From Thiotrichaceae bacterium (GTDB lineage: Bacteria > Pseudomonadota > Gammaproteobacteria > Thiotrichales > Thiotrichaceae): a DNA stretch of 26,964 nucleotides. Position numbers and translations under genes: made by a program. The stretch covers positions 1 to 26,964 of the forward strand of contig JALVDQ010000274.1 in NCBI GenBank assembly GCA_027008885.1, read 5' to 3'. Below the pieces are notes generated by a model. It saw nothing but the letters and a program-made list of their open reading frames with translations, did no database searches and was not told the origin of the DNA. Position 1 is the stretch's first letter, and the number at the start of each line of letters is the position of its first letter. Of the stretch, positions 14,152 to 26,964 are shown in pieces.

Positions 14152-14601
14152 ATGATTCAGTCTAAAAGGGCATCGAAAGCCCGTGTTGTAGCAAAACAGC
14201 AGTCCGGTTTTACCTTGCTGGAAGTCATGGTGGTTGTCGTAATTATTGCGATTATGGCGGCGGCTATTGGTCCCAAGCTATTGGGTAATATTGAAAAAGC
14301 CAGTATCTCCAGAGCCAATACGGATATCACCAATATTGTATCAATGCTGGAGTTGTATAAGGCTGAGAATTATTCTTACCCAAGTACAGATCAGGGTCTG
14401 GAAGCCTTGGTCAGCAAGCCAAGTGGTGATCCTGTGCCAAAAAACTGGAGGCAATACGCCAAGAAAACACCGATGGATCCATGGGAAAACCCGTATAAAT
14501 ATCTTAATCCTGGAGCTCATGGTGAAATAGATGTCTATTCATTTGGACCTGATGGTATTCAGAGTGAGGATGATATTGGTAATTGGGATCTGAAAAATTA
14601 A
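14152..14601 (+). CDS. gspG: Type II secretion major pseudopilin GspG
   Basis: Major subunit of the periplasmic pseudopilus that pushes substrates through the secretin. A 17-18 residue basic leader ends in Gly before FTLLEVMVVVVIIAIM, the prepilin-peptidase site with Glu at +5. The mature part shows ANTDITNIVSMLELYKAENYSYPSTDQGLEALV and the C-terminal Asp-rich loop (PDGIQSEDDIGNWD) that binds calcium in GspG. AAAGGGATG precedes the ATG. It is the first gene of gspGHIJ; no gspC-F lie upstream here. Confidence 0.95.
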   Translation: MIQSKRASKARVVAKQQSGFTLLEVMVVVVIIAIMAAAIGPKLLGNIEKASISRANTDITNIVSMLELYKAENYSYPSTDQGLEALVSKPSGDPVPKNWRQYAKKTPMDPWENPYKYLNPGAHGEIDVYSFGPDGIQSEDDIGNWDLKN

Positions 14602-14605
14602 GCAA

Positions 14606-15112
14606 ATGGCGGGGCTTAAAAACCGGGGTTTTACATTAATTGAAATAATGGTTGTTGTTGTCATTGTGTCTATATTGATTGGCGCGGTGAGCTTGACCTT
14701 TCCCAGATCAACTGATGATTTACTCAAAGAAGATGCTGATCGTTTTACTGAACTATTGTTTCTTGCCCAGGATGAGGCTATTTTGCAATCGCGTGATTTG
14801 GCTATTGCGATAAATAATTCCGGCTACCAGTTTTTAAGCCGAAGCGACAGTGCCTGGACAGTTTTTTCAAAAGAACCTTTCAAACCGAGAAAGTTGCAGG
14901 GAAACGTACAGTCTGATCTTTATATTGATGGTGGTCCTGTCATAAAGTTAAAGGAAGCGGCAAAAACCAAACCGCAGATTGTTATTTATTCAACTGGTGA
15001 AGTGACGCCGTTTGTCTATTATTTCGGTTATAAGGATGGCAGTCAGGTAAAAATAACGGTTGATGCTGCGGGTGCCAGCAAAAAGGAATACCGCTTTGAA
15101 GACAAAAAATAA
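14606..15112 (+). CDS. gspH: Type II secretion minor pseudopilin GspH
   Basis: Minor pseudopilin, probably joining the tip complex to the GspG shaft. The short leader MAGLKNRG is followed by FTLIEIMVVVVIVSILIGAV, a prepilin-peptidase site and membrane helix. The helix continues into DRFTELLFLAQDEAILQSRDLAI, characteristic of GspH, followed by the beta-rich domain. The 168 residues fit. Four bases separate it from gspG, and its 3' end overlaps gspI by 17 bases. Confidence 0.92.
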   Translation: MAGLKNRGFTLIEIMVVVVIVSILIGAVSLTFPRSTDDLLKEDADRFTELLFLAQDEAILQSRDLAIAINNSGYQFLSRSDSAWTVFSKEPFKPRKLQGNVQSDLYIDGGPVIKLKEAAKTKPQIVIYSTGEVTPFVYYFGYKDGSQVKITVDAAGASKKEYRFEDKK

Positions 15113-15500
15113 CAAGGGTTTTACACTGCTGGAGGTTATGATTGCACTTTTTGTGGTCGCAATCGCTCTGGGTGGTGTCATTAAGGTAATGGGAAATGCA
15201 GCCATTAATACCTCTCGTTTGTCTAGTCGGACCTTTGCCCAGTGGGTTGCTTTAAATCAAATTACAAAGTTACAGATTTTGCGTAAATGGCCATCTCCTG
15301 GTGAAATAAAGGGTGATGATGAAATGGCAAATCAGGAATGGCGCTGGGTTCAAAAAACGAAAGCAATAAAAGACGAACATGATAAAGTTACCAATAATGA
15401 TATTAGACGTATAGAGGTGTCCGTTTGGAACAAGAATGATCCCGCGTCTGCCGAGCCGTATGTAACAGTCGTTGGTTTTTTGGTTAATCCAGGGATGTAA
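15096..15500 (+). CDS. gspI: Type II secretion minor pseudopilin GspI
   Basis: Tip pseudopilin that nucleates the GspI-J-K complex. I start it at a TTG (15096) inside the end of gspH: AAAAGGAA lies eight bases upstream and the leader MKTKNNKG is a normal prepilin length. Starts further upstream (ATG 15063) would give an unusually long leader inside gspH. The prepilin site is G/FTLLEVMIALFVVAIALGGV. The 134 residues show the GspI features NQITKLQILRKWPSPGEIKG and EWRWVQ. Confidence 0.9.
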   Translation: MKTKNNKGFTLLEVMIALFVVAIALGGVIKVMGNAAINTSRLSSRTFAQWVALNQITKLQILRKWPSPGEIKGDDEMANQEWRWVQKTKAIKDEHDKVTNNDIRRIEVSVWNKNDPASAEPYVTVVGFLVNPGM

Positions 15501-15504
15501 TGCC

Positions 15505-16098
15505 ATGAGAAGACATACACACAACGGTTTCACCCTGCTTGAACTGTTGATTGCAATGATCATCTTTTCTTTTATGTCGATTATGGCATACAGTGGACTG
15601 ATTAATGTCTTTAAAAGCAACAAGGCTATTTCTTCTATGGAGGACAGGCTCAAAACATTAAAACGTACCATGATGTTTTTTGAGCGAGATATGCATCAAC
15701 TGGTTTTACGGCGAAGGCACTCAGGCTATGGTTATTCTGAATATGTGCCTGCACTGGTTTCGGGGCTGGATGCAGAAGGCGTGCTTGAATTTACATCGGC
15801 TGGAGTTTCTAATCCCCTGGACTTGGTGCGTAGCTCATTGCAGCGTGTTCGCTATGTCCTGGAAGACAAAAAACTTACGAGACTAAGCTGGAAACTGGTA
15901 GATCATATGGATGCCGAGCCCGTTTCGATGATGCTACTGGATAATGTTGAGTCATTTGAGCTTCGTTTTCTGAATAAAAATGGCGTATGGCAGGATAACT
16001 GGGGAGCAAGTAATAATAAAGATTTGCCCGTAGCTGTTGAGCTAACTTTGGAGCACTCTTCCTGGGGGAAAATTAAGCGTTTAATATCGATCTATTAA
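15505..16098 (+). CDS. gspJ: Type II secretion minor pseudopilin GspJ
   Basis: Minor pseudopilin of the tip complex. The leader MRRHTHNG is followed by FTLLELLIAMIIFSFMSIMAY, the prepilin-peptidase site and helix. RLKTLKRTMMFFERDMHQLVLRR and a long beta-rich C-terminal region (ending VAVELTLEHSSWGKIKRLI) fit GspJ. The start ATG lies four bases after the gspI stop with AGGG upstream. The 197 residues fit. gspK, which normally follows, is absent; a non-coding stretch with a MITE-like element comes next. Confidence 0.92.
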   Translation: MRRHTHNGFTLLELLIAMIIFSFMSIMAYSGLINVFKSNKAISSMEDRLKTLKRTMMFFERDMHQLVLRRRHSGYGYSEYVPALVSGLDAEGVLEFTSAGVSNPLDLVRSSLQRVRYVLEDKKLTRLSWKLVDHMDAEPVSMMLLDNVESFELRFLNKNGVWQDNWGASNNKDLPVAVELTLEHSSWGKIKRLISIY

Positions 16099-16664: not shown

Positions 16665-17822
16665 ATGTCAAAAAACAAACATCTAAAAATGCTTGTTATA
16701 AGTTCTTTTCTGGTAATGTCTCTGGGGCTACTATTGCCAGGTTTGTCAGCAGCAGCTGAAATCATTACAGTAGGTCTGTCAAAATCGAATTCCCAGACTG
16801 TACTGGGAAGTACTGTTGTCCCCTATAAGGAAATTACCGTTACAGCAAAAATGCCAGGACAGGTTGTTGCCCTCTCAGGAGATGTTGGCTCAAGATTTAA
16901 AAAAGGTGACATCCTGGCAAAAATTGATGATGCCCAGTTATTGGCAAAGAAAAATACACTTTGGGCACAAATTACTGCTGCACAGGCTGCCTTGAGAAAC
17001 TCCCAGGCTCAATTTCAAAGAGAGATCGTGTCACCTCGCAGTAAAGATATCAGTGGTATGCCGGGCATGGGTTTACCATCAATGATGGATATTTATTTCA
17101 CCCGCCCCATGTATGACATGATGGGTAGCAGTTTTGATACCGATTATAATCGCTATTCTGATCTGGTGAGTAGCCAGAGCGGACTTAAACAGGCAGAAAG
17201 CCAGGTTATGATGGCGTGGTCACAGCTTAATGAACTGGATACCAAAATCAAGGATACGGTTTCTATAGCACCATTTGATGGAATTGTTATGGAAAAAATG
17301 GTTGAAGTCGGTGATGCAGTGCAGCCGGGTCAACCCTTGATGAGATATGGTTTTGTCGATTACCTGCGTTTAAAAGCCGATGTACCTTCGATGCTGGTTT
17401 CCAGCCTGAAAGAGGGTATGAATGTTTCAGTTCGCATTGGTAGCAGCATTTCTACTGTGGCTAAAGTTTCCCAGATTTACCCTGTTGCTGACCCTTCAAG
17501 GCATACAGTCGTCGTAAAATTCGACTTGCCTGTTGGCGTATTGGCATCTCCGGGCATGTATGCAGAGATATTTCTTCCTGATGCAGGTTCTGGTAGTAAT
17601 ACCATTGTAACTATTCCTAAAACTGCCCTGATAGAGGGACGTAGCTTGCCAACAGTGCTGGTTGTCGATGAGGCAAAAAAAACTTCTTCACTGCGCTTGG
17701 TGCGCCTTGGTGTACCTCAGGGAAATGGCATGATCGCCGTTGTTTCGGGCTTGAAAGCAGGTGAGAAAATTATTAATAATCCTCCTACGGGAGCGTCTTC
17801 AGGCTGGTACCCTGAATCCTGA
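16665..17822 (+). CDS. RND efflux membrane-fusion (periplasmic adaptor) protein with Met-rich insert
   Basis: AcrA/HlyD-type adaptor that would link the RND permease downstream to an outer-membrane channel. A signal peptide (residues 1-31, ending SAAA) has no lipobox Cys. A biotinyl-lipoyl half (ITVTAKMPGQVVAL...GDILAKIDDAQLL), a helical hairpin (about 90-190), the second lipoyl half (IAPFDGIVMEKMVEVGDAVQPGQPLM), then beta-barrel and membrane-proximal domains follow. At about residues 130-153, where the hairpin tip should be, lies a segment with seven Met (GMPGMGLPSMMDIYF...PMYDMMG). AAAAGGAAT precedes the ATG. First gene of the cluster; no TolC-like gene is nearby. Substrate unknown. Confidence 0.88.
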   Translation: MSKNKHLKMLVISSFLVMSLGLLLPGLSAAAEIITVGLSKSNSQTVLGSTVVPYKEITVTAKMPGQVVALSGDVGSRFKKGDILAKIDDAQLLAKKNTLWAQITAAQAALRNSQAQFQREIVSPRSKDISGMPGMGLPSMMDIYFTRPMYDMMGSSFDTDYNRYSDLVSSQSGLKQAESQVMMAWSQLNELDTKIKDTVSIAPFDGIVMEKMVEVGDAVQPGQPLMRYGFVDYLRLKADVPSMLVSSLKEGMNVSVRIGSSISTVAKVSQIYPVADPSRHTVVVKFDLPVGVLASPGMYAEIFLPDAGSGSNTIVTIPKTALIEGRSLPTVLVVDEAKKTSSLRLVRLGVPQGNGMIAVVSGLKAGEKIINNPPTGASSGWYPES

Positions 17823-17834
17823 TACTCGCATGAG

Positions 17835-17854
17835 TCAAGAGACAGGTGTCTTGA
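17835..17854 (+). other. Small hairpin between adaptor and permease genes
   Basis: TCAAGA and TCTTGA enclose an eight-base loop, giving a six-base-pair stem in the 74 bp spacer. There is no T run, so it is not a terminator. It could stabilise or process the mRNA between the two genes; it may also be chance. Confidence 0.3.
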
Positions 17855-17896
17855 ATTACAAAAGTAAAGAGAATAGATAGTAGCTGAAGATAGAAT

Positions 17897-20800
17897 ATGA
17901 CTGATCAAAATACATCCCAGGAAAAAAACAGAAAAATACATAAAAACTTAGGAATCGCAGGGGGGATTGCAAAGACATTTATAACCTCTCCCATTACACT
18001 TTTGCTTCTGATTGCATTTTTGGCACTGGGTATGCTGGGAATGCAAATGACTCCCCGGCAGGAAGACCCACAAATATCTGTACCAATGGTCGATATTTTT
18101 GTGAGTTACCCCGGAGCCAGTGCTGAAGAAGTTGAAAGTCAGGTAGCGCGACCGCTAGAAGGCATAATGTCGGAGATTACAGGGGTTAAGCATGTCTATT
18201 CTGCATCTTATCGGGGGCAGGCTCTTGTTACTGTTCAGTTTAAGGTTGGTGAAAACTTTGAATCTTCTATCGTCAAGTTACATGATAAAATAACCTCAAA
18301 TAAAAATAAGATGCCGCAAGGTATAGCAGGTTTTCTGGTCAAGCCTGTCGGGGTGGATGATGTTCCGGTTGTGACGGTTACATTATGGTCAAATGATGTT
18401 GATGATGCATCACTTAAACTGGTTGCACTGGATTTGTTGCAAAAACTGCGCGAGGTACCCAATGCCAGCCAAAGTTTTATTGTAGATGGTCGTACTGATC
18501 AGCTACTCATAGAAATCTTGCCAGAGCGTCTGGCTACCTTTGGGGTTTCATTAGGTCAGGTGGCAAATACGATTCGCATGGCAAATTCCGAGCGTAATGC
18601 CGGTTCGGTAGAGCCAGGAAACAAGTTTGTCAAGGTTATCACCGGTTCTTTTTTGCAATCAGCAGAAGATGTCAAGCGTTTGATGGTCGCTGTGGTCGAT
18701 GGCAGACCTGTGTATGTGCGTGATGTAGCAACAGTTACAGAAGGTCCTAGTGAAGCAACAAAAATTGTTGGTTACTACACCGGAAAGGCAAGCATAACGG
18801 CAACTGACGAGGACAATGAGAAAGAAGAAATCCAGAAAAAGAAATCTCACGAAATTGCCAATGGTGCTCCGGCAGTAACCATTGCAATTGCAAAGAAACA
18901 CGGTTCAAACGGGGTTGACGTTTCAGATGCCGTATTGGAAAAAGTCGAGTATTTAAAGGGGCGCTTGATTCCTGATAATGTACACGTTGAAATAACCCGG
19001 AATTACGGTGAAACAGCAAAAGAAAAAGTAAACGAGTTACTCTTCAAACTTGCTGAAGCAACCATGATGGTAACCGTACTGGTCTTTCTTTTTCTCGGTT
19101 GGCGAGCTTCACTGGTTACCTTTATTATCATCCCTGTTGTTATTACCGTCACTGTATTATCAGCCTGGCTTTTGGGGTTGACAATCGACCGCGTAAGCTT
19201 GTTTGCCCTGATATTTTCAATCGGTATATTAGTGGATGATGCAATTGTAATCGTTGAAAATATTTACCGGCGATGGCTTCTATCTGGAAGTCTGGATATT
19301 GATACAGCAGTTGATGCGGTGCGTGAAGTTGGAAATCCAACCATTTTAGCGACATTTACAGTCATTGCGGCACTCTTGCCAATGGGTTTTGTGAGTGGGA
19401 TGATGGGACCTTATATGTCCCCGATTCCAGTTCTGGGCTCGGTAGCAATGTTATTCTCGCTGTTTGCTGCCTTTGCATTTACTCCCTGGCTAACCAACAA
19501 GTTTAAGCCAAGCCTTGACAAGTTGGAGCAGATGGAAGAGAAAGAGCATCGTCAGGCGGCGTTTCTTGAGAGATTCTTCCGACGCCTGATAATACCGCTG
19601 GTGCGTGACAAGAGAAAAGGAAAGTTACTGCTCTATTCACTGATTGGCGTTTTATTGTTATCAATGACTTTATTCTATACCAAGGGTGTAAAAGTCAAAA
19701 TGCTGCCCCTGGACAACAAGCCCGAATTTAATATTGTAGTGAACTTTCCTGAAGGAACCTCTTTACCCACAACCGCAAATCTTATTAACCAGATTGCTAC
19801 AAAGATGCAGGCTGTTGATGAAGTTACTGCCGTTCAGACCTATGCGGGTACGGCATCACCCTTTAACTTTAACGGACTTGTGCGCCATTATTATTTGCGT
19901 GACAAGCCATGGCAGGGAGATGTACAGGTACAATTAACCAATAAACATGAACGTGAGCGTTCCAGTCACGAAATTGCTGATGAGGCAAGGGCAGTTTTAA
20001 CGCCAATGGCAAAAGCTGTCGGTGCCAGGATACAAGTGGTAGAAATGCCTCCTGGACCACCGGTATTACAATCTGTAGTGGCTGAAATATATGGACCAAG
20101 CGCAGAAACACGCAGACAGGTTGCGCGTGATCTGACTAAAGTTTTTGAAGAAGCTCCAAACCTTGCAGATGTAGATAATTTTCTTGAAGATCCCCATCAA
20201 ATATTGCGTTTCAAGGTAGATGCCGCAAAAGCTCAACGCAATGGTATTTCTGTTGAAGATATCAATTCTACCCTGGATATGGCAATGGGTGGTTATGTCC
20301 TGGGTGATATCAAGAAAAATGCCCTGATTAATCCCACGCCAATTATTATGCAGGTGCCTTTGAGTGCCCGCTCACAGATAAACCGTTTGATACAGTTACC
20401 TGTTACAAACCGCATGGGAAAAACCCTGCCCTTGTCGGAACTGGGTTATTTCGTGAAAGAACAGGCTGATCAGCCAATCTATCACAAGGATTTGCGTCCG
20501 GTAGAGTTTGTTACTGCTGAAACAGTGGGTGATCTGGCAGCACCTGTTTATGGTATGTTCCAGGTGCAGGATATATTGGCAGCAGCCAATAATGGCAAAG
20601 GTTATAAGGCACCTGATGGTACACTCGTTACCAGTGGTAGCTGGTTCGGGCGTGAAGACAAGGCAGATAAAACCAATTTTGAATGGGGTGGAGAATGGAC
20701 GGTTACATTTGAAACTTTCAGGGATATGGGTATAGCCTTTATGGCGGCGCTGGTCCTGATTTATATGCTAATTGTGGCATTATTCGGGAATTTTATACTG

Positions 20801-22051
20801 CCTGCCATTGTCATTGCACCGATTCCGTTAACTCTCATTGGAATAATACCCGGACACTGGATTTGGGGTGCTGATTTTACTGCGACATCCATGATTGGGT
20901 TTATCGCCTTGGCAGGTATTGTTGTCAGAAATTCAATATTATTAGTGGATTTCTCAAAAAATGCGGTGCTGAATGAGGGGAAAAGTGTCGTTGAAGCAGT
21001 TATACATTCCTGTGAGGCGCGTACCAGACCGATAGCCATTACAGCATTTGCGTTAATTGGAGGCTCACTGGTCATTATTACCGATCCGATATTTAAAGGT
21101 ATGGCGGTTTCCCTGGTATTTGGCGGTTTGGTATCGACACTACTTACCCTGATCGTGGTGCCTTTAGGCTGTATAAGTGCAGGCAAGGCACTTTGTATTA
21201 ATGAAGATGGTGAGTCAATTGTACCCCCTGATTTTGAAGATGATGCTTTACTGGAGTCTGATTCGGCTGATGAGCCCTCGGAATACAAAGAAAGCTTTTT
21301 TGACAAGATAAAAGATGCCATTTCAACCCTCTTTGGTATTGTTGTGACTGTGGGAGGATTAATAATAACTGGAGCAAAAGGACTATTGGCGTTTGTTTTT
21401 AGACGCACTAAAAAAGATGATGATGACTGGACTCCAAGCCCTCCGGGAAAAAAGGCAGTAAAAAGTGATGACGACTGGGTTCCTAGTCCACCCAAAAAGA
21501 GAAAAACCAAAAAGAATGATGAGTGGGTTCCCAGTCCACCCAGAAAAAGAACGCAAAAGACAGTAAAAGTCGATGCTGCTGATGATAGTGATAATGATAG
21601 TGAAGCTGCTGATGCGGGTGAGGATGTTGCTAATAAAGATACAAAGCCAGCAAGGAAAGAGGCTGATTCTACTGTTTCAGCAGCAAAACAAAAAAATAAA
21701 AAGTCTGATTCATCAAAGTCCGGGAAAAAAGATGCTAAAGTTAATAAACAAGCAGAAGATACAGAGGCAACAGAAGATGTAAAAAAACCGAAAAAGCAGG
21801 AAACAAAATCCAGGGCAAAACCGGCTACCAGGAAAAAAACACAGACAAAGGCAAAGGCAAAAACGAAGCCAAAGAGCGAGACAGGGCAAAAGACAAAGTC
21901 AACCGCCAAGTCCAAGTCTAAAGCAGCCTCAAAACCGGCGTCTGCTGCAAAGGCAAAATCCAAACCAGAGAAGAAATCCGCAACCTCTGCAAGCGGGACT
22001 AAAGCGAAAAAGTCCAAGCCCAGAGGAATACGTTTGAAAAAAGATATATAG
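17897..22051 (+). CDS. RND-family permease with long disordered C-terminal extension
   Basis: Inner-membrane proton-driven AcrB/HAE-like transporter. The core (about 1-1100) has two transmembrane halves and two large periplasmic loops (QMTPRQEDPQISVPMVDIFVSYPGA at the first). TM4 carries Asp447-Asp448 in GILVDDAIVIVEN, the proton-relay pair; TM10 has Arg1011 in GIVVRNSILLVDF, where AcrB has Lys. After the core comes an acidic stretch, a further hydrophobic segment (about 1142-1168), then three tandem 16-residue repeats centred on Trp1178, Trp1194 and Trp1210 (DDDWxPSPPxKK pattern), and about 165 residues rich in Lys, Ala, Ser and Thr. Usual RND permeases have about 1030-1060 residues; this has 1384. 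The tail should be cytoplasmic if the extra segment does not cross the membrane. Substrate unknown. Confidence 0.9.
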   Translation: MTDQNTSQEKNRKIHKNLGIAGGIAKTFITSPITLLLLIAFLALGMLGMQMTPRQEDPQISVPMVDIFVSYPGASAEEVESQVARPLEGIMSEITGVKHVYSASYRGQALVTVQFKVGENFESSIVKLHDKITSNKNKMPQGIAGFLVKPVGVDDVPVVTVTLWSNDVDDASLKLVALDLLQKLREVPNASQSFIVDGRTDQLLIEILPERLATFGVSLGQVANTIRMANSERNAGSVEPGNKFVKVITGSFLQSAEDVKRLMVAVVDGRPVYVRDVATVTEGPSEATKIVGYYTGKASITATDEDNEKEEIQKKKSHEIANGAPAVTIAIAKKHGSNGVDVSDAVLEKVEYLKGRLIPDNVHVEITRNYGETAKEKVNELLFKLAEATMMVTVLVFLFLGWRASLVTFIIIPVVITVTVLSAWLLGLTIDRVSLFALIFSIGILVDDAIVIVENIYRRWLLSGSLDIDTAVDAVREVGNPTILATFTVIAALLPMGFVSGMMGPYMSPIPVLGSVAMLFSLFAAFAFTPWLTNKFKPSLDKLEQMEEKEHRQAAFLERFFRRLIIPLVRDKRKGKLLLYSLIGVLLLSMTLFYTKGVKVKMLPLDNKPEFNIVVNFPEGTSLPTTANLINQIATKMQAVDEVTAVQTYAGTASPFNFNGLVRHYYLRDKPWQGDVQVQLTNKHERERSSHEIADEARAVLTPMAKAVGARIQVVEMPPGPPVLQSVVAEIYGPSAETRRQVARDLTKVFEEAPNLADVDNFLEDPHQILRFKVDAAKAQRNGISVEDINSTLDMAMGGYVLGDIKKNALINPTPIIMQVPLSARSQINRLIQLPVTNRMGKTLPLSELGYFVKEQADQPIYHKDLRPVEFVTAETVGDLAAPVYGMFQVQDILAAANNGKGYKAPDGTLVTSGSWFGREDKADKTNFEWGGEWTVTFETFRDMGIAFMAALVLIYMLIVALFGNFILPAIVIAPIPLTLIGIIPGHWIWGADFTATSMIGFIALAGIVVRNSILLVDFSKNAVLNEGKSVVEAVIHSCEARTRPIAITAFALIGGSLVIITDPIFKGMAVSLVFGGLVSTLLTLIVVPLGCISAGKALCINEDGESIVPPDFEDDALLESDSADEPSEYKESFFDKIKDAISTLFGIVVTVGGLIITGAKGLLAFVFRRTKKDDDDWTPSPPGKKAVKSDDDWVPSPPKKRKTKKNDEWVPSPPRKRTQKTVKVDAADDSDNDSEAADAGEDVANKDTKPARKEADSTVSAAKQKNKKSDSSKSGKKDAKVNKQAEDTEATEDVKKPKKQETKSRAKPATRKKTQTKAKAKTKPKSETGQKTKSTAKSKSKAASKPASAAKAKSKPEKKSATSASGTKAKKSKPRGIRLKKDI

Positions 22052-22065
22052 AGAGAGAATACGCA

Positions 22066-22866
22066 ATGAAAGGGTTACAAAAAAATTATTCATTACAAAT
22101 AGTTGTAGCAACCGTATTAGCTTCAGTTATGATTTTAGTTACAGGCAATGGGATTGCTGATTCACGGAATAGCAAAAACTTGTTACCGCCGCCTGGTCCA
22201 TTTGCCAATAAACTTCCCGAAGCTGAGGTAGACAGCGCTGCATCTGGAGCTGTTTCCTCTCCGCACAAACCTGTAGCACCAGTAGCTCAACAGGGGTTAA
22301 ATCAAAAAGGCATTTCAGAAAAAATGCCACATCAGCCCAAAAAACCGGAGATAGCTCATGCCATGCCAAAGCCAGGGGTGCTTCCGGCACTTGAGCTTAA
22401 GCCAGTGAATAAAGGAATCAGGCAACCAGTGCCTGGCAGGGAGCCCGAATTCAAGAGAGAAATGCCCAGTATTCCCCAGGCATTAGCTACAATCAAAGCA
22501 CCAACAGTGCCCCAGGTTTCCCAGCCTGCTACTCCCCGTATGCCAGAAGTTAAGCCCCCAGCTTTTTCTGTGAATGCACCACAGGGCGCATATCAGCCAG
22601 GATCTGCTCCGCAATTAAGTCGTCCCATGCCGCCACAACAGCCACTGATGCCAAATACACGACCTGCGATGCCGCCAGCTTACAGAGCAAATTCTGCTCA
22701 GCCAGGTTCTTATATGCGTCCGGGAGTACAGCAATATCGCTATATTCCACTTCCCGTATATCAAGCAAACTATGGTTATTCCAGGCCACCTGCCAATGGC
22801 TACTATATGCCCACACCAGGTTTTTGGGTGCCACGCAGTTCTGGCAACAAAGCTGGCAACAAATAA
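22066..22866 (+). CDS. Proline-rich exported protein, unknown function
   Basis: I do not recognise a family. The N-terminus (residues 1-31) has a hydrophobic stretch (QIVVATVLASVMILVTG) ending GIA/DS, a signal peptide or a single anchor. The remaining 235 residues are low complexity, rich in Pro, Gln and Ala, with PxxP motifs throughout and a Tyr/Pro-rich C-terminus (YRYIPLPVYQANYGYSRPP). No Cys and no predicted domain. It lies 14 bp after the permease stop, so it is probably co-transcribed. It shares a PQGAY motif with the coiled-coil protein at 24693, also in a Pro-rich setting. Likely a periplasmic spacer or scaffold; this is inference. Confidence 0.75.
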   Translation: MKGLQKNYSLQIVVATVLASVMILVTGNGIADSRNSKNLLPPPGPFANKLPEAEVDSAASGAVSSPHKPVAPVAQQGLNQKGISEKMPHQPKKPEIAHAMPKPGVLPALELKPVNKGIRQPVPGREPEFKREMPSIPQALATIKAPTVPQVSQPATPRMPEVKPPAFSVNAPQGAYQPGSAPQLSRPMPPQQPLMPNTRPAMPPAYRANSAQPGSYMRPGVQQYRYIPLPVYQANYGYSRPPANGYYMPTPGFWVPRSSGNKAGNK

Positions 22867-22900
22867 TGGAATACTCTTTACTGAATCATGGGAGGGGTAA

Positions 22901-23521
22901 ATGATAACAGTTGTAGGTAATATGAAAGGTGGTACAGGTAAAAGCACAGTTGCTTTCAATTTGTCAATTTGGGTAGCGACGAGACGTAATGTGCACGTTT
23001 CAGTTTATGACCTTGATCCGCAAGCAACAATTACTGACGCATTGGAAATCAGGACAGAAGATGGTCATGTACCTACAATTGAACCATCGAATAACGTAGA
23101 TGAACTCTCAAATGAAGGGAAACACACTGAAGTCATTATAGATATTGGTATTTCAGATAGCAAAGCGATGAATGCGGCGATAAAAAAGGCAGACCGGATT
23201 TTAATTCCGGTTGCTCCAAGTCAGGCAGATGTGTGGTCAACACAACGCTTTTTAAAACTTATTTTTGATTTGAGAAAAAAGGGCAAAAAACCGGAAATTT
23301 TAGGTTTTATGAATCGCTCGGATACACACCGCGCAGTGCGTGAAACCGACGAAGCATTTGAAGCACTTAGTACCCTTGATGAATTGAAAATGCTCAAGCC
23401 AAGGCTGTATCAGCGCACAGCATACAGGCGCTCGTTTAGTGAAGGTATGGCAGTGTTTGAGCTGGATTCAAAATCAAAAGCGGCAAAAGAGATTGAGGAA
23501 CTGGGGCAGGTATTGTATTAA
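22901..23521 (+). CDS. Orphan ParA/McdA-like partitioning ATPase
   Basis: Small ParA-family ATPase of the kind that positions protein cargo over the nucleoid. The deviant Walker A motif KGGTGKST (about residues 9-16) carries the signature lysine. YDLDPQAT is the A-prime motif, and VIIDIGIS the Walker B region. RILIPVAPSQADVWST and a short C-terminal helix follow. The 206 residues resemble cargo-positioning ParAs (McdA, PpfA type) rather than plasmid or chromosomal ParA, which usually carry N-terminal DNA-binding parts. No parB gene or obvious parS site is present. GGAGGGG precedes the ATG. Embedded in the RND/dynamin cluster, so its cargo may be a neighbour. Confidence 0.85.
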   Translation: MITVVGNMKGGTGKSTVAFNLSIWVATRRNVHVSVYDLDPQATITDALEIRTEDGHVPTIEPSNNVDELSNEGKHTEVIIDIGISDSKAMNAAIKKADRILIPVAPSQADVWSTQRFLKLIFDLRKKGKKPEILGFMNRSDTHRAVRETDEAFEALSTLDELKMLKPRLYQRTAYRRSFSEGMAVFELDSKSKAAKEIEELGQVLY

Positions 23522-23627
23522 TTTATGCCACAATAATCTTGCAAATGTGAGATAATAGGCGTAGTCAAAGTAAAACCTGAATCAGTAAGGCTGCTACGCA
23601 AGTAGAAATAAAAGAAGAGGAATATTG

Positions 23628-24653
23628 ATGTATATCGTAAGATGGTTAATGGGGCATCCAATTATTGCAACCTGGGTGTTGGGGCTTATTGCAATCTTGC
23701 TTTCAGTGGATGCGACAAATAAAAGCGCGCATAGCACAGAAGATATGGGGATATCCCATACGCTGGAATCTGTTCAAACTGAAGAACATGCAAAAGAACA
23801 TGTCACTGCGGGAACAACAGTGGAAGCTGCAGCAACAAAAGAGGATGCGGCAAAAGGAGGTGTGGCAAAAGAAAATGTAGCAAAAGAAAATGCAACAACA
23901 GGAACAACTGCCAATGGGGATAGCAGTGTAAACAGTGAGACCGCCTTAAACACGGTTATCAGTACAGCAGCTACAACAAGTGGAGAAAAATCGAATGAAA
24001 ATAAATTCGGTAGTGAGCATACCAGTACAAGCGCCACAAAAAATAATGTAGCTTCAGGCATAACAGAAGCCACGACAGTACTCAAAGAAACAGTAACAGA
24101 ATCCGTCAGGAAAACGGCGGATAAAACGGCGGATAAAGTAAACACAATGGTATCAGCCGTTAAAAAAAACTCAGATAAAGTGATAACAAAATCTGAAGCA
24201 GTTGTTTCAGACGTTAAAAATGCGATTAAGACAAAAATCAATCCAAAATCTCAACAAGATGTAGCTATAGCGGGAAGTGCAAATTTATTACAACTTAAAA
24301 AGGAAGTCGCACAGGTTCCGCCAGAGGCAAGCTCTGATTTGGAGCAGGTAAAACCAGCAGAGCTTCTGTTAATGGCAAGAGAAGCCTATTGGAATAATGG
24401 TCTTGATGAAGCTGCTGAATTATATCTGAGACTGATTAAACTGGAACCGGATGTGATAGAACACAAGGGTGAACTGGGCAATGTTTACTGGAGACAGGGC
24501 TATCCCAGGAAAGCGGCTGAACTCTATTCTGAGATAGCACTACCAATGATAAAAAATGGAAATACTGATAGAGTAGTCAATATGGTCGGATTTATCGCTT
24601 TGTTTTTTCCGGAAAAGGCGGCTGAAATCCAGCAGCAAATTCAGCAACAGTAA
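23628..24653 (+). CDS. Membrane-anchored protein with low-complexity linker and TPR-like C-terminus
   Basis: Not a named family. The start is the ATG at 23628 (an in-frame TTG precedes it directly), with AGAGG upstream. One N-terminal membrane helix (about 8-26, IIATWVLGLIAILLS) anchors it. Residues 30-225 form a long Ala/Thr/Glu/Lys linker with short internal repeats (VAKEN twice, KTADK twice) that could form an amphipathic helix around 140-210. The C-terminal part (about 242-341) has two TPR-like helical pairs (LLLMAREAYWNNGLDEAAELYLRLI and GELGNVYWRQGYPRKAAELY). The TPR part suggests a protein-docking role. It lies 106 bp after the ParA gene and 39 bp before the next. Confidence 0.75.
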   Translation: MYIVRWLMGHPIIATWVLGLIAILLSVDATNKSAHSTEDMGISHTLESVQTEEHAKEHVTAGTTVEAAATKEDAAKGGVAKENVAKENATTGTTANGDSSVNSETALNTVISTAATTSGEKSNENKFGSEHTSTSATKNNVASGITEATTVLKETVTESVRKTADKTADKVNTMVSAVKKNSDKVITKSEAVVSDVKNAIKTKINPKSQQDVAIAGSANLLQLKKEVAQVPPEASSDLEQVKPAELLLMAREAYWNNGLDEAAELYLRLIKLEPDVIEHKGELGNVYWRQGYPRKAAELYSEIALPMIKNGNTDRVVNMVGFIALFFPEKAAEIQQQIQQQ

Positions 24654-24692
24654 CAACGAAGCAAAGCACTAAAAATGGGGTAGGTAAATATT

Positions 24693-25487
24693 ATGGCAAA
24701 AAGTGATTTGCACAGAGATTATATTCTGGAGCTGGAAAGTGAGCTTCAGGAATTTGAAAAAAAAGCAGATGCAACCACTAGACGCTTGCAGATTATGGTA
24801 TACCCCGCCATGATTGCTTTTATTATTTTGGCATCATTTGGTTTTTATCTGATTTATTCGTTAACTTCTGATGTTAACCGAATGGCAGATACAATAATAC
24901 ATATGAGCAGTTCCATAGATAGAAATATGGACTCCATATCAAATACCATGGGGCATATGTCAGGCAAGATGGATTCGCTTGCAGATTCAACACATAACAT
25001 GTCCAGCAATGTTGGAATGATGTCGAGTAATGTGAGCAATATGACCGAAAATACCGTAGAAATGGTTAACAGTATCAGTGGGCTACGCGCAGCAACCTAT
25101 GACATGGCAGCCTCAACCAATAATATGCAGCGTGATATGTGGAGCCTCAACAAAAATATTTCCACCCCACTAAGTTTTATGAATAATTTTCTTCCCTGGA
25201 AGAATGATCGGAGCTTGCCATTCCAGGGCTCAAGCAGACCACTGCCACCCTCATATTTTGCCATTCCTGCAAAACAGCCCCAGGGTGCTTATGGCAATGG
25301 AAACTTGCTTCCTGCACCAGTGCCTCTTCTGCCAATGCCCGACTTATACTCAGTGCCGTCACCTGCTGCTCCTGCAGTACCAAAAAAGCCAGCAAATCCG
25401 GCAGATGTGACAGTTAAGTCTAATGATCAAAGCTCTGCTGTAAATCCTTTGCCTGGAAAGCCTGGAGAAATTATTTCACAAAGGTAA
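24693..25487 (+). CDS. Single-pass membrane protein with Met heptad coiled coil and Pro-rich tail
   Basis: Not a named family. A charged N-terminal helix (LELESELQEFEKKADATTRR) precedes one membrane segment (about 34-57). Residues 60-155 form a Ser/Asn/Met-rich coiled coil: Met recurs every seven residues (103, 110, 117, 124, then 138, 145), with an earlier run at 79, 86, 93. The final 95 residues are Pro-rich (PAPVPLLPMPDLY, VPSPAAPAVPKKP) with PQGAY at about 196-200. The coil resembles signalling-helix linkers of chemoreceptors but there is no receptor signalling tip. It probably oligomerises at the membrane; this is inference. It sits between the TPR gene and the dynamin-like gene. Confidence 0.75.
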   Translation: MAKSDLHRDYILELESELQEFEKKADATTRRLQIMVYPAMIAFIILASFGFYLIYSLTSDVNRMADTIIHMSSSIDRNMDSISNTMGHMSGKMDSLADSTHNMSSNVGMMSSNVSNMTENTVEMVNSISGLRAATYDMAASTNNMQRDMWSLNKNISTPLSFMNNFLPWKNDRSLPFQGSSRPLPPSYFAIPAKQPQGAYGNGNLLPAPVPLLPMPDLYSVPSPAAPAVPKKPANPADVTVKSNDQSSAVNPLPGKPGEIISQR

Positions 25488-25614
25488 AAGGCAAAAGGTA
25501 ATGATTCTCTTGATAGCTGACCTGCGAAAGTACTGACGCGCAATCCCTAAAGTAAGCTTTGAACTCATGGTAGTTTGCCTGCCTGTTTTAATATAATAAT
25601 GAGGTATAGTAGTA

Positions 25615-26964
25615 ATGACGACCCCTGTTAAAAGAATGCATAACCGCCTGGAGCGATTACAGGAACATTTAAATAGAGAAAGCCCCATTCTGGTTTCAGT
25701 CGTCGATCGCTTCCGCAAACTGGACTCCATCTCAAAGAAGATGGGCTTATTGCAGGCTGACGAATCTTATGCAACGCAGATTTCATGGTGGCCTCTAGTC
25801 TCGGTACTGGGAACATTCTCAGCGGGAAAATCCAGTTTTATCAACTCATACCTGGGGCTTGCTGTTCAGGATACGGGTAATCAGGCGGTTGACGACCGTT
25901 TCACTGTATTAACCTACAGTGGTGACTCAAAGGTAAGAGTCCTTCCCGGAATTGCCCTGGATGGCGATCCACGTTTCCCTTTCTATCAAATAAGCAAAGA
26001 TATTGAAGAAGTATCAGAAGGTGAAGGCGCCCGCATAGATCGCTATCTGCAAATGAAAGCTGTCCCAAGTGAGAAACTTCGTGGCAAGATACTTATAGAC
26101 TCCCCTGGTTTTGATGCAGATGAACAACGCAAGGCAACCTTGAGAATCACAGATCATATAATTGACCTGTCTGACCTGGTACTGGTTTTGTTTGATGCAA
26201 GACATCCCGAACCAGGTGCCATGCAGGACACTCTTGAGCATCTTGTGCGTGGTTCGCAACGACGTAATGATGGCAGTAAATTTCTCTTTATCCTGAATCA
26301 GATAGATACCTCTGCAAAAGAAGACAATATGGAAGAAGTTGTTGCAGCATGGCAAAAATCTCTGGTTCAAAGTGGCTTGAATGCGGGTCGTTTCTACGTT
26401 ATTTTCAATAAGGATGTGGCAACTCCGGTTGAAAATGAAGCCGTCTGGGAGCGTTATGTTAATAAAAGAGAAGCGGATTATGCCGAGATCAGCAAGCGCA
26501 TGGAAGATATTAATATTGACCGTGTTTACCGAATCATTGGCAGTCTTGAATCACTTTCAAACCAGATCGAACAACAGGCAGTGCCGCAACTTCAGCTAGC
26601 CATGCAACGCTGGAAAAAACGGGTCATAATCACTGATCTTGTGATTATTCTTCCAGTTGTTATCGGTGCCGTAGTGCTGGCAGTTATCACAGGCGCATCA
26701 GATGCGATTATGTCTACGCTGCAATCAAGCCCTTTAACTGGAATTATCGGCGGTGTAGTTGCACTACTTTTAATTTATTTGTTGCACCTGTTTATTCGCA
26801 CCAAACTGGCAAATGGAATTGCAAAAAAACTGCCCACTGAAGATACTTTTGGTAATCTTGCCAATGCTTTTAGAAAAAGCACACGCTGGTGGCGTAGCAT
26901 CTTTAGCAAAAATCCGGCTGGCTGGGGAAGTGGAGTACGCAAAAAGCTGGATGCCATTCGTAGC
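25615..26964 (+). CDS. Dynamin-like GTPase, membrane-anchored (cut by window edge)
   Basis: Large GTPase of the dynamin superfamily; members shape, tether or remodel membranes. The first 450 residues are present and the gene runs off the window. G1 is GTFSAGKSS (66-74), the probable G2 threonine is Thr97, G3 is DSPG (162-165) and G4 is NQID (228-231). Two hydrophobic segments (about 337-359 and 374-395) form a hairpin-like membrane domain, followed by a basic region. GAGGT lies ten bases before the ATG. A TATAAT hexamer at 25592 may mark a promoter in the 127 bp spacer, but no matching -35 is clear. Last gene of the cluster in view. Confidence 0.85.
   Translation, partial: MTTPVKRMHNRLERLQEHLNRESPILVSVVDRFRKLDSISKKMGLLQADESYATQISWWPLVSVLGTFSAGKSSFINSYLGLAVQDTGNQAVDDRFTVLTYSGDSKVRVLPGIALDGDPRFPFYQISKDIEEVSEGEGARIDRYLQMKAVPSEKLRGKILIDSPGFDADEQRKATLRITDHIIDLSDLVLVLFDARHPEPGAMQDTLEHLVRGSQRRNDGSKFLFILNQIDTSAKEDNMEEVVAAWQKSLVQSGLNAGRFYVIFNKDVATPVENEAVWERYVNKREADYAEISKRMEDINIDRVYRIIGSLESLSNQIEQQAVPQLQLAMQRWKKRVIITDLVIILPVVIGAVVLAVITGASDAIMSTLQSSPLTGIIGGVVALLLIYLLHLFIRTKLANGIAKKLPTEDTFGNLANAFRKSTRWWRSIFSKNPAGWGSGVRKKLDAIRS

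Follow-up and report, generated by a model that had tools for sequence, protein, structure and literature searches.

What would a membrane pump, an orphan ParA-type ATPase, and a dynamin-like GTPase do together in a single run of genes? The question is raised by one end of a 26,964-nucleotide stretch of DNA from a Thiotrichaceae bacterium (contig JALVDQ010000274.1 of assembly GCA_027008885.1), which we refer to as the window. There, seven genes on the plus strand (16665..26964) encode an adaptor and a permease of the resistance-nodulation-division (RND) type, an exported proline-rich protein, the ParA, a membrane protein with putative tetratricopeptide repeats (TPR), a coiled-coil membrane protein, and the GTPase. 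The original prediction saw in them a candidate undescribed system, a transport complex placed by the ParA and tied to membrane shaping. We find that the seven genes are one lineage's version of a recurring cassette of sulfur-oxidizing bacteria that is widespread and apparently undescribed. Sulfur globules are storage inclusions of many sulfur oxidizers and their animal symbionts, and to our knowledge, how they are built, bounded by membrane, spaced, and inherited is poorly known. We think it probable that the cassette serves these globules and that the tail of the pump partners an orphan ParA, which would space them in the periplasm.

RESULTS

The seven genes are a version of a recurring cassette

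The open reading frames (ORFs) and their translations bear out the seven co-directional genes as described (Table 1). The spacers along the cassette measure 74, 14, 34, 106, 39, and 127 bp, within the claimed range of 14 to 127 bp; the fourth becomes 103 bp if the TPR gene begins at its listed TTG (23625) instead of the ATG directly after. The dynamin-like ORF is open because the window ends where the contig ends.

Orthologs of the cassette ParA occur in 40 of 229 genomes of the class (Gammaproteobacteria), the window's own included. Their scores run from 443 to 132 bits and the next paralog scores 77; the cut, at least 130 bits, was set by eye. The RND permease has orthologs in 46 of the 229 genomes, with a score gap from 1202 to 943 bits at a cut of at least 1200, also set by eye; scoring was limited to the top two candidates of each genome, and G183 was counted from a fragment of the same clade. 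The dynamin-like GTPase is present in 55. Of the 40 ParA genomes, 36 also have the RND permease (P = 2e-28) and 34 the GTPase (P = 4e-20), with both P values calculated over the 229 genomes and ignoring phylogeny. The case that the original prediction had named against itself, a permease pair and ParA-to-dynamin genes that occur independently, therefore mostly fails.

Gene order is conserved as well. Among the 39 loci with a ParA ortholog other than the window, the RND gene lies upstream of parA with order and strand kept in 22. Downstream, 31 of the 39 have one or more of the TPR, DUF302, coiled-coil, and dynamin genes. The other 8 have no downstream member within the stretch examined, and a number of incomplete loci stop at contig edges. 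Chance neighborhood is ruled out by the order kept across families and by the co-occurrence. For the same reasons, it is very improbable that the seven genes are unrelated operons that happen to adjoin, although the dynamin gene does stand alone in some genomes and is divergent, beside the adaptor gene, in Sedimenticola-type loci.

The cassette is also found in named species, and its core outside the class. When named species genomes were scanned with the dynamin alignment, the best 80 of 569 confirmed relatives yielded 32 loci with RND and ParA, some of them partial, in hosts including Cocleimonas, Leucothrix, Thiothrix, Sedimenticola, Thiodiazotropha, Thiohalomonas, and symbionts of Lucinoma and Bathyaustriella. 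The ParA clade was further found in 39 of 398 genomes of the phylum (Pseudomonadota) besides the window's own, all from outside the class. At 16 of these non-class loci, we found RND in 11 (10 of the 11 with the tail motif described below), DUF4412 in 11, and the coiled-coil gene in 14, with TPR and dynamin in only two; several of these loci stop at contig ends. Thus, the predicted recurrence in distant genomes with order kept was observed, and the core of RND, DUF4412, ParA, and coiled-coil extends outside the class. As a definition of the system, the list of seven genes fared less well: the cassette recurs, but its dynamin gene is loosely attached, and relatives add a DUF4412 gene ahead of parA, a DUF302 gene (its product has a membrane segment at the N terminus) ahead of the coiled-coil gene, and genes for sulfur globule proteins.

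The cassette is associated with sulfur oxidation and sulfur globule proteins

The original prediction made no mention of sulfur storage, to which the relatives' cassettes point in two ways. The first is metabolic. Among the 229 class genomes, dsrA was matched in 77 (73 above the curated cut-off) and soxB in 96 (94 above it). All 40 ParA-positive genomes have a match to one or both, versus 64 of 189 ParA-negative genomes, a comparison not corrected for phylogeny. Thirty-five of the 40 have dsrA, the window's own genome has both genes, and in G208, the sole sulfur oxidation match is a dsrA fragment below the curated cut-off. Outside the class, dsrA was found in 37 of 39 ParA-positive genomes versus 0 of 41 ParA-negative controls, most of the latter coming from one family (f196). 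In one genome (G057, locus L066), soxB adjoins the cassette: soxB (18332-19900 in that locus; 779 bits) and a gene for an alpha/beta hydrolase lie directly upstream of it. In another (G194, locus L064), soxB lies on the cassette contig a few kilobases upstream.

The second association is with the sulfur globule protein family PF17228 (SGP), which was matched in 34 of the 229 genomes (33 above the cut-off). All 34 are among the 50 with a cassette ParA or RND, versus none of the other 179. Within the 77 dsrA-positive genomes, the family occurs in 30 of 43 with the cassette and 0 of 34 without it. Of 88 PF17228 places (91 rows, after merging three same-frame neighbor rows), 17, in 15 genomes, are in or next to the cassette, no more than 10 kb away from a listed ParA or RND. 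Within cassettes, the matching genes sit between RND and ParA, or before DUF4412 in the ParA-less loci L151 and L152, and their products are small and exported. Two of six such exported proteins scored above the cut-off of 26.7 bits (L052, 56 bits; L152, 44 bits), one fell just below it (L151, 26.2 bits), and three had no match. In two sets of ten ORFs chosen as the most globule protein-like, 6 of 10 from relatives' cassettes and 3 of 10 from loci outside the class exceeded the cut-off. An earlier guess based on gene lengths, that this was a polyhydroxyalkanoate cassette, was dropped because genes inside the cassette matched PF17228.

PF17228 is limited in reach; among six Leucothrix/Thiothrix-type genomes tested (G238-G243), the family was matched in only one. 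By a composition filter, exported ORFs rich in P, G, Y, N, or Q lie between RND and ParA at 39 of 53 distinct loci, with L035 and L103 counted as one. Counting both strands, exported low-complexity ORFs number 73 in 79.3 kb between RND and ParA versus 4 in 176.3 kb outside cassettes. At ten loci outside the class (L194, L196-L198, L200-L202, L204, L206, and L208), the gap holds several of them, often small and of AWWG/GYNGYNG type. The window's proline-rich protein (P0003) occupies this same position. It was considered as a PF17228 member and rejected, since it matches no Pfam family. As a sign of homology to SgpD, the 13 PxxP in its mature part, versus 9.2 ± 2.5 in shuffles, are weak.

These associations also bear on what the pump might carry. 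A complex common in these lineages that expels or secretes something else, be it metals, hydrophobic compounds, or surface material, and that is linked to sulfur through shared ancestry, would fit the best-matching RND families, which NCBIfam names as efflux systems, and the 8 of 55 class genomes with dynamin-like orthologs that lack a dsrA or soxB match. We consider this account quite improbable: PF17228 tracks the cassette even when the comparison is confined to dsrA-positive genomes, its genes lie inside the cassette, and the window proteins scanned include no outer membrane factor (the rest of the genome was not searched).

The permease tail ends in a motif that goes with ParA

Proteins of the ParA/MinD group are recognized by a deviant Walker A motif, KGGxGKS/T, with a signature lysine, and by DxDPQ. 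In an alignment of 16 cassette ParA rows (15 distinct), K9, G10, G11, G13, K14, S15, and T16, as well as D37, D39, P40, and Q41, are invariant. The window's protein passed the Pfam CbiA cut-off and scored 130.5 bits with NCBIfam ParA_partition, below the curated cut-off of 180; among five solved relatives, McdA included, ParF is nearest. We call it an orphan: Pfam detects no ParB-like domain in the window's cassette, and Pfam and NCBIfam matches, the only route by which McdB-like proteins were sought, revealed none next to it.

A candidate partner is found instead at the end of the permease, in a feature that had gone unnoticed in the original prediction. After the RND core (residue ~1095), ParA-linked permeases carry about 143 to 350 extra residues, rich in Lys, Ala, and Pro and hardly alignable (the 72-residue tail of L041 is frame-broken). 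Across 38 aligned rows, invariance within the tail is confined to R, G, I, and L, at residues 1376, 1377, 1378, and 1380 of the window's permease, and the flanking R and K of this motif exceed 90%. The resulting pattern, RGI[RKQ]LK, lies in the last 40 residues of 58 of 66 full tails, compared with a mean of 0.002 in composition shuffles. Over all loci examined, 84 frames have the motif near their end; 73 match the RND core, and the remaining 11 are short (62 to 195 residues) and were taken for the ends of RND tails where a contig or locus stops, or for the second frame of L041. Because a number of contigs are broken within the repetitive tail (L171, L172, L056, and L032), annotations may miss the C-terminal motif.

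The motif is conserved and associated with ParA. Among 74 RND copies, it is present in 58 of 64 with ParA by the strict pattern, or 63 of 64 by a lax count, versus 1 of 10 without ParA. The 74 were drawn from 86 rows by leaving out nine second copies, the truncated tails of L132 and L159, and L180, which is outside the cassette. Also admitted to the lax count are L041, whose motif is in another frame, the variants L057 and L175, and L171 and L172, where the tail stops at a contig end and the motif opens a different contig from that genome. The motif is absent from seven second RND copies of ParA-positive genomes (L163, L170, and L181-L185). The ParA-less genomes G080 and G205 (L151 and L152) retain adaptor, RND, DUF4412, TPR, coiled-coil, and dynamin genes, and their RND tails are 27 to 32 residues long. 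Thiofilum flexile (L095), with no ParA match genome-wide at an E value of 1e-20, has a tail of 77 residues without the motif.

The ParA might instead act through the coiled-coil, TPR, or DUF302 protein of a sulfur globule or sulfur export apparatus, leaving the tail motif with another role. Neighbor counts lean this way, as parA has at least one of the downstream genes in 31 of 39 loci and an RND neighbor in 22, with both figures influenced by contig ends. Yet where ParA is missing, at L151, L152, L154, and L095, the TPR and coiled-coil genes are kept and the RND tail or its motif is gone.

Topology bears on the same choice. The AlphaFold model of the C-terminal half of the permease (mean per-residue confidence score, pLDDT, of 70) shows one extra 38-residue helix followed by disorder. 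In 53 of 68 tails, this segment has the hydrophobicity needed to cross the membrane; as a possible 13th transmembrane helix, it would make the motif periplasmic, which speaks against a tail that contacts ParA and in favor of the alternative just described. Under standard RND topology, the C terminus is cytoplasmic. Four loci (L058, L059, L179, and L049) keep both motif and ParA and have no strong hydrophobic tail segment, so the motif would be cytoplasmic in these by the standard topology. This argues for a motif on the cytoplasmic side, and the extra helix would then lie in the plane of the membrane or be re-entrant. Accordingly, we regard ParA action through the coiled-coil, TPR, or DUF302 protein as unlikely, although it deserves to be kept in mind.

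The dynamin-like GTPase has a life outside the cassette

The profile of the dynamin-like protein finds EHD4 as its best match in the Protein Data Bank (E value of 1.8e-5), and PADLOC reports a weak similarity to LeoA (30 bits). It shares Dynamin_N with bacterial dynamin-like proteins and EHD ATPases and differs from them as a distinct family in which DARHPEPGAM is invariant. Because its gene stands without cassette neighbors in Nitrosomonas communis, a Granulosicoccaceae metagenome-assembled genome (MAG), and a Competibacteraceae MAG (L144, L146, and L140), the GTPase must have a life outside the cassette.

The TPR and dynamin genes are paired in five Thiotrichaceae-type MAGs (L074, 5640-11434, and L076, L089, L093, and L097; two carry the name Cocleimonas), with no adaptor, RND, or coiled-coil gene around them in the stretches examined. 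In L074 and L097, the pair follows gspGHI(J). No ParA match was found in these five genomes at an E value of 1e-20.

Layout of the window locus and neighboring genes

Table 1. Features of the cassette in the window
Feature	Coordinates	Strand	Evidence
RND periplasmic adaptor (membrane fusion protein)	16665..17822	+	HlyD_D23 59.6 bits; RND_mfp 148.6, cut-off 94.9
RND (HAE1-type) permease with long C-terminal tail	17897..22051	+	ACR_tran 513 bits
Permease C-terminal tail, residues ~1096-1384	21182..22048	+	Lys-rich, 24% K/R; pLDDT <50 over most
Extra predicted 38-residue tail helix, residues 1134-1171, membrane or in-plane	21296..21409	+	AlphaFold model, hydropathy
RGIRLK motif near the permease C terminus (residues 1376-1381), proposed as a docking peptide for ParA	22022..22039	+	Conservation
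Exported proline-rich protein (P0003)	22066..22866	+	20% Pro in mature part; position of relatives' sulfur globule protein genes
Orphan ParA-type ATPase	22901..23521	+	CbiA 46.7, cut-off 25.4; KGGTGKST
Single-pass membrane protein, variable middle, C-terminal TPR	23628..24653	+	TPR matches weak, below cut-offs; conserved neighbor
Single-pass coiled-coil membrane protein	24693..25487	+	Translation; orthologs adjoin ParA/TPR
Dynamin-like GTPase, C-terminal hydrophobic pair, incomplete at contig end	25615..26964	+	Dynamin_N 58.3 bits, cut-off 27

The genes upstream of the cassette are ordinary (gspG-J, yaaA, coaD, spoT, dnaB, and others). The pseudopilin genes gspG-H-I-J (14152-16098) precede it, with 566 bp between gspJ and the adaptor start, and no other type II secretion genes were found among the window proteins scanned. 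Beside the ParA-less cassette of L151, a family scan identifies a divergent gene for a PAS/sigma-54 activator (17122-18462), a candidate regulator; a similar-looking gene lies beside the ParA-less cassette of L152 (11665-13029).

DISCUSSION

If the cassette serves sulfur globules, its parts can be fitted into one tentative scheme. The exported Pro/Gly/Tyr-rich proteins (PF17228 in many relatives, the proline-rich protein in the window) would coat the periplasmic sulfur globule. The adaptor-RND complex, the single-pass coiled-coil and TPR proteins, and the dynamin-like GTPase would form and shape the membrane that holds it: the pump complex would be seated in the membrane around the globule, perhaps supplying it with envelope or sulfur material, the TPR and coiled-coil proteins would tie the coat to that membrane, and the GTPase would remodel it. 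The Lys-rich permease tail, with its RGI[RKQ]LK motif, would reach the cytoplasm, where it would engage and stimulate the orphan ParA on the nucleoid. Globules would thereby be spread out in the cell and passed to both daughters at division, in the way that McdAB handles carboxysomes. What would be new here is a ParA that acts across the inner membrane to position and partition periplasmic globules, with a transporter's disordered tail serving as cargo adaptor, in a cassette that also supplies the coat, the anchors, and a dynamin-like remodeling GTPase; this fuller proposal we advance tentatively, at a little under even odds.

Parts of this scheme have precedents in the portions of the literature consulted. 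Globule envelope proteins are described as exported, and globules as intracellular but extracytoplasmic (PMC10386293). SgpA-D of Allochromatium vinosum are exported hydrophobic or proline-repeat envelope proteins, a likeness to the window's exported proline-rich protein; sgpD is reported to adjoin a gene for an exporter of hydrophobic or amphiphilic compounds, and SgpD localizes to globules, while the parts of that account consulted mention no ParA, dynamin, coiled-coil membrane, or TPR partner genes (PMC10386293). The window's protein differs from these in having no PF17228 match; the SgpD sequence itself was not compared. ParA/MinD ATPases are reported to reach their cargos via partners with a positively charged disordered N terminus, and many are orphans (PMC10241942). 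The likeness to McdAB is of this kind, a ParA-type ATPase and a cargo partner with a basic, disordered terminus (PMC10241942), but here the candidate partner is the C terminus of an RND permease and the cargo would be a periplasmic inclusion. HAE1/AcrB-type pumps with a membrane fusion protein share the adaptor-permease pair and the ACR_tran core. They differ from the cassette pump, whose tail carries RGI[RKQ]LK, whose genes are followed by those for exported structural proteins and ParA, and whose cassette in the window has no outer membrane factor. Among the matches listed in mostly open-access literature, searched by title and the start of the abstract, none links ParA, dynamin, or RND to sulfur globules; one of them (PMC11267869) applies the term RND, in the part consulted, to metal pumps, and the text seen of a 2025 review of organelle positioning (PMC13052382) contains none of the words "globule," "sulphur," and "sulfur."

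Several observations weigh against a globule cassette positioned through the pump tail. For the coat, 16 of the 50 cassette genomes have no PF17228 match, the window's own genome (G000) among the genomes without one; the proline-rich protein stands there in its place, and among the loci compared, it matched only two close kin (L071 and L072), no database search having been run. Conversely, a Thiomargarita MAG (G249) has PF17228 and no cassette ParA (RND was not searched there). For the sulfur link, a Competibacteraceae genome (G250) has ParA and neither dsrA nor PF17228 (soxB was not tested there), and two of the 39 ParA-positive genomes outside the class lack dsrA. For the tail, the RND tree shows six changes each of motif and ParA, and six independent pairs gave 4 concordant, 0 opposite, and 2 with no difference, which is not significant by itself (P = 0.125; 3 to 0 without Thiofilum and the named genomes). 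Individual loci also depart from the pattern: L153 (G088, 88% complete) has the motif and no ParA match, in L206 ParA is accompanied by an RND that lacks the motif, and L176 (G208) carries only a motif variant. Finally, the cassette ParA is missing from 21 of the 55 genomes with the dynamin-like GTPase, and 15 of the 55 have neither ParA nor RND.

With these points counted in, we still favor a sulfur globule cassette in which the pump tail partners the orphan ParA. A conserved cassette and a six-residue candidate docking peptide make the positioning of sulfur globules directly testable. If the proposal is true, a ParA would be acting on a cargo on the other side of a membrane, through the tail of a pump.

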